A stretch of 64,000 bases of DNA from Desulforadius tongensis (GTDB lineage: Bacteria; Bacillota; Desulfotomaculia; Desulfotomaculales; Desulfohalotomaculaceae): NCBI RefSeq assembly GCF_016907915.1, contig NZ_JAFBCW010000004.1, forward strand, positions 1-64,000. Reading direction: 5' to 3'. This document shows, one piece after another, positions 14,037 to 18,297 of this stretch. Within the stretch, counting starts at the first letter, position 1; each line of letters opens with the position of its first letter. The notes beneath the pieces are model-generated. The model searched no databases and was not told where the DNA came from. It worked only from the letters and a program-made list of their open reading frames with translations. The position numbers and the translations under genes were made by a program.

Positions 14037-14078
14037 ATAAAACAGCAGCAGTATGGAAAAGTTAATAAATTTAAAATA

Positions 14079-14171
14079 GCTCTAGGGGAGCCTATTGATG
14101 GCTGAGAGGAGATTGGTCTCCGACCCTCATAACCTGATCTGGGTAATACCAGCGTAGGGAAGAGTTAGAGC
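14079..14171 (+). ncRNA. TPP riboswitch (THI element)
   Basis: All conserved blocks are present in order: AGGGGAGCC, TGGCTGAGAGG, GACCCT, AACCTGATCTGGGTAATACC, AGCGTAGGGAAG. GCTCTA (14079-14084) pairs with TAGAGC (14166-14171) to close the structure. It binds thiamine pyrophosphate and here precedes an intrinsic terminator before thiC, giving transcriptional control. Confidence 0.97.
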
Positions 14172-14185
14172 ATGGGCAGACTGTG

Positions 14186-14222
14186 CCGTAACTCACTATG
14201 TTGGGTTACGGTTTTTATTTTT
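14186..14222 (+). terminator. Riboswitch-controlled terminator before thiC
   Basis: CCGTAACTCA (14186-14195) pairs with TGGGTTACGG (14202-14211), one wobble, followed by TTTTTATTTTTATT. It is the expression platform that stops transcription when TPP is bound. Confidence 0.9.
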
Positions 14223-14245
14223 ATTCAAAGAAAGGTGGAGATAAC

Positions 14246-15547
14246 ATGACACAATTGGAGTACGCGCTAAAGGGAATTATAACAGAAGAGATGAAACTGG
14301 CGGCAGAAAGAGAAAAAATTAATCCCGAAGATTTAAGAAAAGGAATTGCCAGGGGAGAAATTGTACTGCCCTGCAATATTAATCATAAAAATTGTCACCC
14401 CATTGCCGTAGGTAAAGGATTATCAACCAAAGTTAATGCCAATATCGGTACATCAGATGCCTATCCTGAACTGGATAAGGAAATTAAAAAGCTGGAAACG
14501 GCCATCAAAGCCGGAGCCCATTCGGTAATGGACTTGAGTACCGGTGGAGACATTGATGAAACAAGAAGGCAGATAATTAATCACAGCACAGTAATGGTGG
14601 GTACCGTTCCTATTTACCAGGCCCTAGTTGATGCGTCAAAACGAGGTAAAAAAATGGTGGAACTAACTGCCGATGAAATGTTTGAAGCAGTGGAAAAGCA
14701 TTGTGCCGATGGGGTGGATTTTATTACTGTGCACTGTGGAGTAACTAAGGAAGTGATAGAAGAATTAAAGGTCAACGGCCGGGTGATGGACATTGTATCC
14801 CGGGGGGGCTCCTTTATTACTGCCTGGATTTTACATAACCAGAAGGAAAATCCTCTATATGAACAGTTTGACAGGTTGCTGGAGATAGCTAAAAAGTATG
14901 ATGTTACCTTAAGCCTGGGTGACGGCCTGCGGCCGGGCTGCATTGAAGATGCCACCGATGCCCCTCAAATAAGAGAACTAACCATTCTGGGCAGTCTGGT
15001 AAAAAGGGCCAGGGCAGCCGGGGTACAGGTTATGGTGGAAGGCCCGGGCCATGTCCCCCTGGACCAGATAGAAGCCAATATGAAGATAGAAAAGACCCTT
15101 TGTCATAACGCGCCCTTTTATGTTTTGGGCCCGATAGTTACTGACGTGGCTCCCGGGTACGATCATATCACCGCTGCCATTGGAGGTACCTTAGCTGCCT
15201 CTGCGGGGGCAGATTTCCTGTGCTATGTTACCCCGGCAGAACACCTGGGACTTCCCACTGTAGAAGACGTAAAGGAAGGCGTAATCGCCTCCCGCATTGC
15301 TGCCCATGCGGCCGATATTGTTAAAGGTGTAAAGGGAGCCAAAGAATGGGATTTAGCCATGTCCAGAGCTAGAAAGGAATTGGACTGGGAAAAGCAGATA
15401 GAACTGGCCATAGATCCGGAAAAAGCAAAAAATATGCGCCGGAATAAGAATGATGAAAACCAGGAATGCTGCACCATGTGCGGAAGTTTCTGCGCTTATA
15501 AAATAGTTAGTGAATATTTAGGTAGAACAATTAAAGGTAGTTGTTAG
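14246..15547 (+). CDS. thiC: Phosphomethylpyrimidine synthase
   Basis: 433 aa, the short ThiC form. It is a radical-SAM enzyme converting aminoimidazole ribotide to HMP phosphate for thiamine. Signature segments: HKNCHPIAVGKGLSTKVNAN, SVMDLSTGGDID, DFITVHCGVTKE, MVEGPGHVPLDQIEANM and APFYVLGPIVTDVAPGYDHI. The C-terminal cluster motif reads CTMCGSFC, i.e. C-x2-C-x3-C. ATG 14246 is preceded by AAGGTGGAG. It is controlled by the upstream TPP riboswitch; no other thi gene is adjacent. Confidence 0.97.
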   Translation: MTQLEYALKGIITEEMKLAAEREKINPEDLRKGIARGEIVLPCNINHKNCHPIAVGKGLSTKVNANIGTSDAYPELDKEIKKLETAIKAGAHSVMDLSTGGDIDETRRQIINHSTVMVGTVPIYQALVDASKRGKKMVELTADEMFEAVEKHCADGVDFITVHCGVTKEVIEELKVNGRVMDIVSRGGSFITAWILHNQKENPLYEQFDRLLEIAKKYDVTLSLGDGLRPGCIEDATDAPQIRELTILGSLVKRARAAGVQVMVEGPGHVPLDQIEANMKIEKTLCHNAPFYVLGPIVTDVAPGYDHITAAIGGTLAASAGADFLCYVTPAEHLGLPTVEDVKEGVIASRIAAHAADIVKGVKGAKEWDLAMSRARKELDWEKQIELAIDPEKAKNMRRNKNDENQECCTMCGSFCAYKIVSEYLGRTIKGSC

Positions 15548-15704
15548 TATAAAAGCATGGAAAATAAAAGAGGTTGGTGGTATTAAAATATTTGCTGCCG
15601 CAATTAAAGGAATTAAAATTTTTATGTAGTATATAACATGTGTGCATTTTACTATGCGGCTTAAAAAGGGTGATTTTAGAACCGCAGTATTTTTCAGGTA
15701 GGCC

Positions 15705-15965
15705 TCATGATGTAAATGGCACCGGCAGGGAATGAAAATTTCGGCAGCTATTTGAAGGAGCGAACGTCTTTTAGTGAGCAGCTGCCTAACTTAGCAAAGA
15801 CGGCGGGTGGAGACAGGGTAACGCATACGAGTGCGCTGCCGGCATTTGAACCAAGGCGGGCGAAATATGCCTGGGACCCTGCTGCAGCCAGACGGCTGAG
15901 TGCCAGTTTGGCCTGCGGTACGAAACCGGTGAGCGGTGTGCAAATACTGCCGGGCTCGGCAAGAT
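15705..15965 (+). ncRNA. Candidate large structured RNA (possibly raiA-motif-like)
   Basis: About 240 nt with no convincing ORF but many nested complementary segments. A closing stem CCGGCAG (15722-15728) / CTGCCGG (15947-15953) encloses GGCAGCT (15743-15749) / AGCTGCC (15780-15786), CAGGGT (15814-15819) / ACCCTG (15876-15881), CGCAT (15822-15826) / GTGCG (15831-15835), AGGC (15854-15857) / GCCT (15869-15872), CAGCC (15885-15889) / GGCTG (15894-15898) and CGGT (15916-15919) / ACCG (15925-15928). TGCCG (15948-15952) can instead pair with CGGCA (15957-15961). Clostridial raiA-motif RNA is the leading candidate by size and style, but I cannot confirm the family. Confidence 0.6.
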
Positions 15966-15993
15966 AAATTTTTCAGGGTAGGAGTAAGCAGAA

Positions 15994-16308
15994 ATGTCTA
16001 TACCAAAAAGAATAAAGGAATTAAGAGCAAGGGCAGGCATCAGTCAGGAAACTTTAGCCCAAAAGCTAGGTGTGAGCGTTGCATCGGTAGCTTCCTACGA
16101 AATAGGGAGGGTAAATCCCAGTATTGAAGTTTTAAAAAAAATTGCTGATATATTCGGTGTTAGCGTTGACTACATATTGGGAAGAAGCAATGATGAGCCC
16201 ATTGTGCCGATAGAAATTAGTTTTATGATTAAATCACTGCCGGAAAAAAAGAAAGAAAAAGTAATCAGATATTTGCAATTTATCGTTGAAGAAGAAATGA
16301 ACTATTAA
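15994..16308 (+). CDS. XRE family helix-turn-helix regulator
   Basis: 104 aa. Residues 3-60 are a Cro/CI-type HTH: RIKELRARAGISQETLAQKLGVSVASVASYE, then NPSIEVLKKIADIFGVSVDYILG, as in SinR-like proteins. The C-terminal ~35 residues (FMIKSLPEKKKEKVIRYLQFIVEEE) form a helix likely to dimerise. ATG 15994 follows GTAGGAG. It lies ~30 bases downstream of the structured RNA region, so it may share that transcript. Its targets are unknown. Confidence 0.88.
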   Translation: MSIPKRIKELRARAGISQETLAQKLGVSVASVASYEIGRVNPSIEVLKKIADIFGVSVDYILGRSNDEPIVPIEISFMIKSLPEKKKEKVIRYLQFIVEEEMNY

Positions 16309-17700: not shown

Positions 17701-18297
17701 ATGGAAGGCAGTAAATTTCAAGAACTCGTGCTGCAGCAATTGCAAGCGCTTACTGAAGGGCAAAAGGTGCTTACTGAACGTTTAGAGGTCGTAGAAAAAG
17801 GACAGCAAAGACTTGAAAACGGCATGGGCGGCCTTGAAAACCGCATGGACAGCCTTGGAAACCGTATGGGTGACATTGAAAACCGCATGGATGACCTTGG
17901 AAACCGCATGGACGGTCTTGAAAACCGCATGGATGACCTTGGAAACCGCATGGACGGTCTTGAAAACCGCATGGATGACCTTGGAAACCGTATGGGTGAC
18001 ATTGAAAACCGCATGGACGGCCTTGGAAACCGTATGAGCGATCTTGAAAATCACATGGGCGACCTTAAAAACCGTATAGGTAGCCTTGAAAATCGCATGG
18101 AAACGGTTGAAAAAGGTCTGTTAAAAGTGGAAAACTATGTTGAAAACGAGGTTATCGATAAAGTTCGCGCCTTGTTTGATTCTCGCGAAGTACATGAAGA
18201 TAAACTCCGCCGGATAGCTAACAAGCTGGAGAGCATTGAAATTGATACTGGTTATCTAGTTACAAAAGTTGCTAAATTAGAAAAAGCAGCAAAATAA
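17701..18297 (+). CDS. Coiled-coil protein of near-perfect heptad repeats
   Basis: 198 aa. Residues ~38-137 are about 14 copies of a seven-residue unit of form LENRMDG / LGNRMDD, with Leu and Met at the a/d positions of a coiled coil. Flanks are helical (QQLQALTEGQKVLTERLEVVEKG before; VRALFDSREVHEDKLRRIANKLESIE after). No membrane segment. A strong AAAGGGGG site precedes ATG 17701. Similar DUF-type tail-fibre-like or LXG-like repeat proteins occur in clostridia, but no function can be assigned. It is monocistronic. Confidence 0.8.
   Translation: MEGSKFQELVLQQLQALTEGQKVLTERLEVVEKGQQRLENGMGGLENRMDSLGNRMGDIENRMDDLGNRMDGLENRMDDLGNRMDGLENRMDDLGNRMGDIENRMDGLGNRMSDLENHMGDLKNRIGSLENRMETVEKGLLKVENYVENEVIDKVRALFDSREVHEDKLRRIANKLESIEIDTGYLVTKVAKLEKAAK
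17812..18110 (+). repeat. In-frame 21/42-bp tandem repeat
   Basis: Within the coiled-coil gene, a 21-bp unit (CTTGAAAACCGCATGGACGGT and variants alternating GAAAAC with GGAAAC) repeats about 14 times, in places as a 42-bp higher-order unit that is identical between copies. This explains the long open frames seen on the other strand. Confidence 0.92.

Follow-up and report, generated by a model that had tools for sequence, protein, structure and literature searches.

A dispersed intergenic element with a conserved fold and predicted CsrA-binding hairpins in Desulforadius tongensis and relatives, and a probably decayed copy of it upstream of an XRE-type regulator gene

The window, by which we mean the whole 64,000-nucleotide stretch of the Desulforadius tongensis genome analyzed here, carries on its + strand a thiC gene followed by a gene for an XRE-type regulator, and between them lies one copy of the element described below. 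The features of this copy and its surroundings are as follows, where the strands of P1 to P3, the rod helices of the fold shared with its relatives, were placed from the consensus fold and pair counts.

14198..15547, + strand: thiC, the upstream neighbor, named from sequence
15674..15698, + strand: right-end remnant of another copy (TTTTAGAACCGCAGTATTTTTCAGG), abutting the element's left end; the string recurs in the genome
15702..15981, + strand: the whole element copy, its left limit approximate; matched at about 40 further places in the genome, with ends common to other copies
15722..15728, + strand: 5' strand of the stem proposed in the first-pass annotation, with 15947-15953; strong in the window copy alone, not conserved
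15743..15749, + strand: 5' arm of a local hairpin, with 15780-15786; favored over P1 and P2 in the window copy
15743..15757, + strand: 5' strand of P1, pairing with 15937-15951
15778..15791, + strand: 5' strand of P2, pairing with 15905-15916
15794..15818, + strand: 5' strand of P3, pairing with 15877-15901
15819..15838, + strand: hairpin P4, whose loop here is AUACGA, with GGA lost
15839..15873, + strand: hairpin P5, whose loop here is AAGGCG, with GGA lost
15877..15901, + strand: 3' strand of P3
15905..15916, + strand: 3' strand of P2
15937..15951, + strand: 3' strand of P1
15963..15981, + strand: right end motif GATAAATTTTTCAGGGTAG, with the consensus GATAACATTTTTCAGGGTAG
15980..15984, + strand: AGGAG, which probably serves the XRE gene as its ribosome-binding site and overlaps the end of the element
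15994..16308, + strand: XRE-type regulator, the downstream neighbor, named from sequence

Elsewhere in the window, a TPP riboswitch scoring above the Rfam threshold lies directly 5' of thiC (14074-14177), a group II intron fragment (23-93, +) stands beside a tRNA (99-171, -) at the window start, and a 198-aa ORF at 17701-18297 consists of repeats of a NRMDDLGNRMDGLE-type unit and is coiled-coil-like.

The first-pass annotation of this DNA had proposed a large structured RNA at 15705-15965, close to the element limits of approximately 15702-15981 found here. Folding calculations bear out the structured stretch, as the + strand (-98.8 kcal/mol) beats its shuffled versions (z -2.44; 3 of 200 shuffles as good), while the - strand folds no better than shuffles (z -0.41).

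The stretch is far from unique. A search of the window genome with it yielded 51 matches spread over about 40 places, among which the nearest paralogue (C20:24047-24311) is nearly full length and 79% identical, and the others mostly share its beginning, its end, or both without the middle. The right-end consensus occurs 46 times in the genome at three or fewer mismatches, compared with no occurrence of a reversed control. The copies are mosaics whose right ends often abut the left end of the next copy, and the remnant string next to the window copy recurs elsewhere in the genome with 89-100% identity. Several of the copies here (L041, L053, L062, L063, L071, and L077) lie just 3' of what looks like an intrinsic terminator belonging to the preceding gene.

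Distant relatives with 66-70% identity are present in other families of the order, and the named carriers are Desulfofundulus thermosubterraneus, D. australicus, one Desulfovirgula MAG, and two Clostridiales MAGs; two Pontibacter matches listed alongside these relatives lack the element. Further copies were found with a covariance model of the element core (R1), which matched 25 of the 113 genomes of the order. With 28 candidates scored in each genome, some carriers have from at least 10 to at least 28 copies each, with at least 10 in the window genome and at least 18 in another genome of the same family (G004), and no R1 copy was found in two congeners (G001 and G002). Across the phylum, R1 matches at E 1e-4 or better were obtained in 87 of 398 sampled genomes, and the core is common to lineages whose ends differ greatly.

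Alignment of the relatives reveals a conserved fold, a long rod (P1-P3) topped by two hairpins (P4 and P5). The first alignment comprised 16 full-length copies, the window copy among them; its consensus contains 59 pairs, and pair-keeping changes on both sides occur at 32. In this set 95.2% of cells are paired, compared with at most 40.5% in slid versions of the alignment, and the covariation score is 0.414, compared with at most 0.081 in slid versions and 0.197 in shuffles. With 80 aligned copies, double-sided changes were found in 39 of 43 pairs, 97.0% of cells are paired (at most 39.0% when slid), and the covariation score is 0.528 (at most 0.073 when slid), although the 80-copy alignment was fitted to R1, which makes the 16-sequence set the cleaner test. 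Covariation among homologues, which the first-pass annotation had named as a check on its proposal, is therefore very strong. Most consensus helices also recur when each of the other 15 sequences is folded alone (for example, P2 with probabilities of 0.70-0.99). In three copies (L100, L108, and L111), the apical hairpins are split by inserted stretches, some of which have inverted repeats of their own.

This fold is not the one that had been drawn for the window. The 7-bp stem proposed to close the structure is real as complementarity (CCGGCAG at 15722-15728 with CTGCCGG at 15947-15953) and has a pairing probability of about 0.98 when the window copy is folded alone, but it is not the conserved closing stem of the family. 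The covarying closing stem is 15743-15754 with 15941-15951, within P1 (15743-15757 with 15937-15951), and the proposed stem is impossible in the nearest full-length paralogue, because CACCATCAGAGG stands there instead of the window's CACCGGCAGGG. Likewise, the suggestion that TGCCG chooses between the closing stem and a local hairpin in a switch-like manner does not describe the family, since the local hairpin requires GGCAGC/GCTGCC, which is absent in Desulfofundulus and other relatives. The association with the XRE regulator is also incidental, given that many unrelated genes adjoin element copies and that no element precedes an XRE orthologue of the same family. We conclude that a real structured RNA family is involved, but that it is a dispersed multi-copy element and not a riboswitch-like RNA of the XRE gene.

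Placement and substitution pattern both bear on whether the fold acts as RNA. Among copies flanked by two co-directional genes in the window genome, 26 are oriented in sense and 2 in antisense (p 3e-6), where genes are simple ORF calls and the copies are not fully independent, and the 80 aligned copies include 40 in sense and 11 in antisense. This bias could stem from the choice of insertion sites instead of RNA function. At paired positions, GU outnumbers the AC mismatch in two sets out of the three (GU 63 vs. AC 20, and GU 38 vs. AC 8, the cells not being independent), an excess that would be expected if this strand acts as RNA; the asymmetry is absent from the small phylum set (GU 4 vs. AC 7). 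Of the 28 copies whose right end is recognizable, 15 have a start codon accompanied by a ribosome-binding-like sequence no more than 75 bases 3', and a ribosome-binding site at the end of the element, as in the window, also occurs at several other copies. It is plausible that the element is transcribed in sense with the neighboring genes and that its fold acts at the RNA level.

The apical hairpins suggest what such an RNA might do. GGA is present in the P4 loop in 84 of the 86 distinct copies, in the P5 loop in 84, and in both in 83, and these loops are fixed while the surrounding stems vary freely. Besides the window copy, only L203 (in P4) and L145 (in P5) lose one GGA loop, each through a change to CGA. 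Paired GGA motifs in hairpin loops are the signature of CsrA binding (PMC4383904; PMC4333381), and the paired GGA hairpins of intact copies, as predicted from their sequences, are probably landing sites of CsrA. The window genome has two csrA genes. Across the order, csrA was found in 23 of 25 element-bearing genomes compared with 39 of 88 others (p 2e-5, a statistic that ignores shared ancestry); the two carriers in which it was not found are G064 and G084, the latter 70% complete. In the mechanism that we propose, the two GGA hairpins of an element would bind a CsrA dimer, and the bound CsrA might either regulate the host message or be drawn off other messages.

A known motif resembles this arrangement. 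TwoAYGGAY was predicted in 2014 to bind CsrA, as a Clostridial candidate (PMC4333381), and its Rfam family (RF01731, gathering threshold 43 bits) belongs to the same clan as CsrB (CL00106). The window copy has no match to RF01731, the best score in the window genome is 23.8 bits, and Desulfofundulus copies reach 30.1 bits, both below the threshold. In L015, a Desulfofundulus-family copy, the middle aligns to positions 49-109 of the TwoAYGGAY model, and one relative (L113, G033:C56:92265-92422) passes the threshold (43.8 vs. 43) and matches R1 as well (39.6 bits, E 7e-7). On this comparison of sequences the element core is related to TwoAYGGAY, though most copies score below the Rfam threshold. 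Both have two adjacent hairpins with AYGGAY-type loops, a feature of the family that the window copy lacks in both hairpins. Both also have tandem G-A pairs, reported in one stem of TwoAYGGAY (PMC4333381) and seen here as GAG facing GAG in P4 of many copies, and both are reported from Clostridiales. By contrast, the element has a long outer rod under strong conservation, whereas the outer stem of TwoAYGGAY was described as poorly conserved (PMC4333381), and the character of a mobile high-copy repeat is absent from the published descriptions of TwoAYGGAY that we found. Paired GGA in hairpin loops is likewise shared with the CsrB/RsmB and RsmY-type RNAs, which are encoded as discrete sRNA genes and contain many GGA sites, whereas the element occurs as many dispersed copies with two sites each, in sense beside other genes. 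As of the 2014 motif paper, CsrA-sequestering RNAs had been described only in Gammaproteobacteria (PMC4333381).

Movement is clearest in G053, a genome whose genus label (g12) is that of both named Desulfofundulus genomes. Here a subfamily of about 260 bp has sharp, inverted ends (left CTGAAGTATCCCCA, right TGGGGATAACTCAG) and is flanked by 9-bp direct duplications, which a script found to be perfect in eight core-bearing copies (for example, GTAACGGAA, AGAAAGTTG, ATAAAAGTC, and CACAATGGG); a ninth, at L166 (GTCTTGAAG), was read by eye. Two deleted copies of 139 bp in the same genome (L218 and L219), too short to contain the core, have the same ends and perfect duplications of 9 and 10 bp, and the core therefore seems dispensable for movement. 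Given the terminal inverted repeats and target-site duplications, MITE-type transposition is established for this subfamily at least. No transposase was recognized by eye among the ORFs at four unexplained end-motif places in G053.

The ends of other copies, including that in the window, differ from those of the G053 subfamily. In the window's own subfamily the shared ends are clear, and no inverted ends or duplication was recognized; mobility in the window genome is instead suggested by dispersal, nested ends, and absence in congeners, and the congener contig that was checked for an empty target site stops 36 bases upstream of the XRE orthologue. In the other subfamily, the left ends are often preceded by TAG (e.g., L016, L049, L060, L073, L159, and L160) and the right end, CAGGGTAG, also finishes in TAG, which suggests a target preference or a short duplication.

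Like MITEs, the element is short, non-coding, and present in many copies, with inverted ends and target duplications in one Desulfofundulus subfamily. It differs from them in having a covarying fold common to lineages with different ends, and no autonomous partner was found for it. BOX elements of Streptococcus pneumoniae are modular intergenic repeats with an exchangeable middle; the present element is alike in this modularity by description only, with no known relation.

These observations raise the alternative that the element is a repeat at the DNA level only, whose fold is kept because a transposase recognizes single-stranded hairpins, and that it has no role as RNA or in CsrA binding. 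Such an explanation accounts for copies that move with inverted ends and 9-bp duplications, for near-identical copies inside one genome, and for the transposition of coreless copies, but it does not readily explain why the core, apparently unneeded for movement, is the most conserved part, or why lineages with quite different ends have one core. The constancy of the GGA loops amid changing stems, the sense bias, and the GU excess argue against it further, and we consider it rather unlikely. Taken together, we favor, as fairly probable, the hypothesis that the element is a dispersed mobile RNA element with a conserved fold, predicted to bind CsrA through its two GGA hairpins, and that the window copy is a decayed member.

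The window copy is the only one of the 86 with neither GGA loop. When it is folded alone, three of the family helices are hardly formed (P2 0.00, P4 0.15, and P5 0.01), and the stem of the first-pass annotation and local hairpins form instead of the family fold. Its R1 score is 106 bits, compared with 134 bits for the nearest paralogue. Since both GGA loops are lost and the family fold is no longer favored, this copy has probably decayed, as judged from sequence and calculated folding. Today it may mainly provide the XRE gene with a 5' leader and with part of its ribosome-binding site.

A more active role is conceivable, in which the window copy is still functional as an XRE leader with a newly evolved fold, possibly a switch. 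Its fold is indeed stable against shuffles, the alternative stem is strongly predicted, and the copy lies immediately ahead of the XRE start and has AGGAG at its end. However, none of the relatives examined showed that fold, an orthologous element is missing ahead of the XRE orthologue in the same family, and no terminator-like site was found on the + strand between the element and the XRE gene, so that we regard this role as improbable. The idea of a raiA-motif RNA outside its usual context, which comes from the first-pass annotation, can practically be set aside, as RF03072 matched neither the window nor any other part of the genome at the thresholds used. In the Rfam search of the region, no family reached its threshold or an E value of 1 or better. 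An 83-aa ORF does exist at 15716-15967, but in the 79%-identical paralogue each of the three frames is interrupted by stops and the sequence variation tracks base pairing, making a protein-coding stretch extremely improbable, in agreement with the first-pass view that the region holds no credible ORF.

In the open literature, we found nothing relevant on Desulfotomaculum repeats with CsrA, or on CsrA with MITEs. TwoAYGGAY anticipated RNAs of this kind. What is new to us, being absent from the open papers that we found, is the scale of the family, together with its conserved rod, its mobility, and its placement in sense. The family is large, its fold is well defined, and its movement is demonstrable in one lineage. 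Because intact copies bear a hairpin pair resembling a CsrA site, a mobile element may scatter CsrA sites around genomes. More tentatively, it is possible that paired CsrA-binding hairpins have been carried by a transposable element into dozens of intergenic sites in each genome throughout much of the phylum, where they would constitute a distributed CsrA buffer and rewire the targets of CsrA. If intact copies do bind CsrA, this would be a mobile element that disperses the sites of a global RNA-binding regulator.
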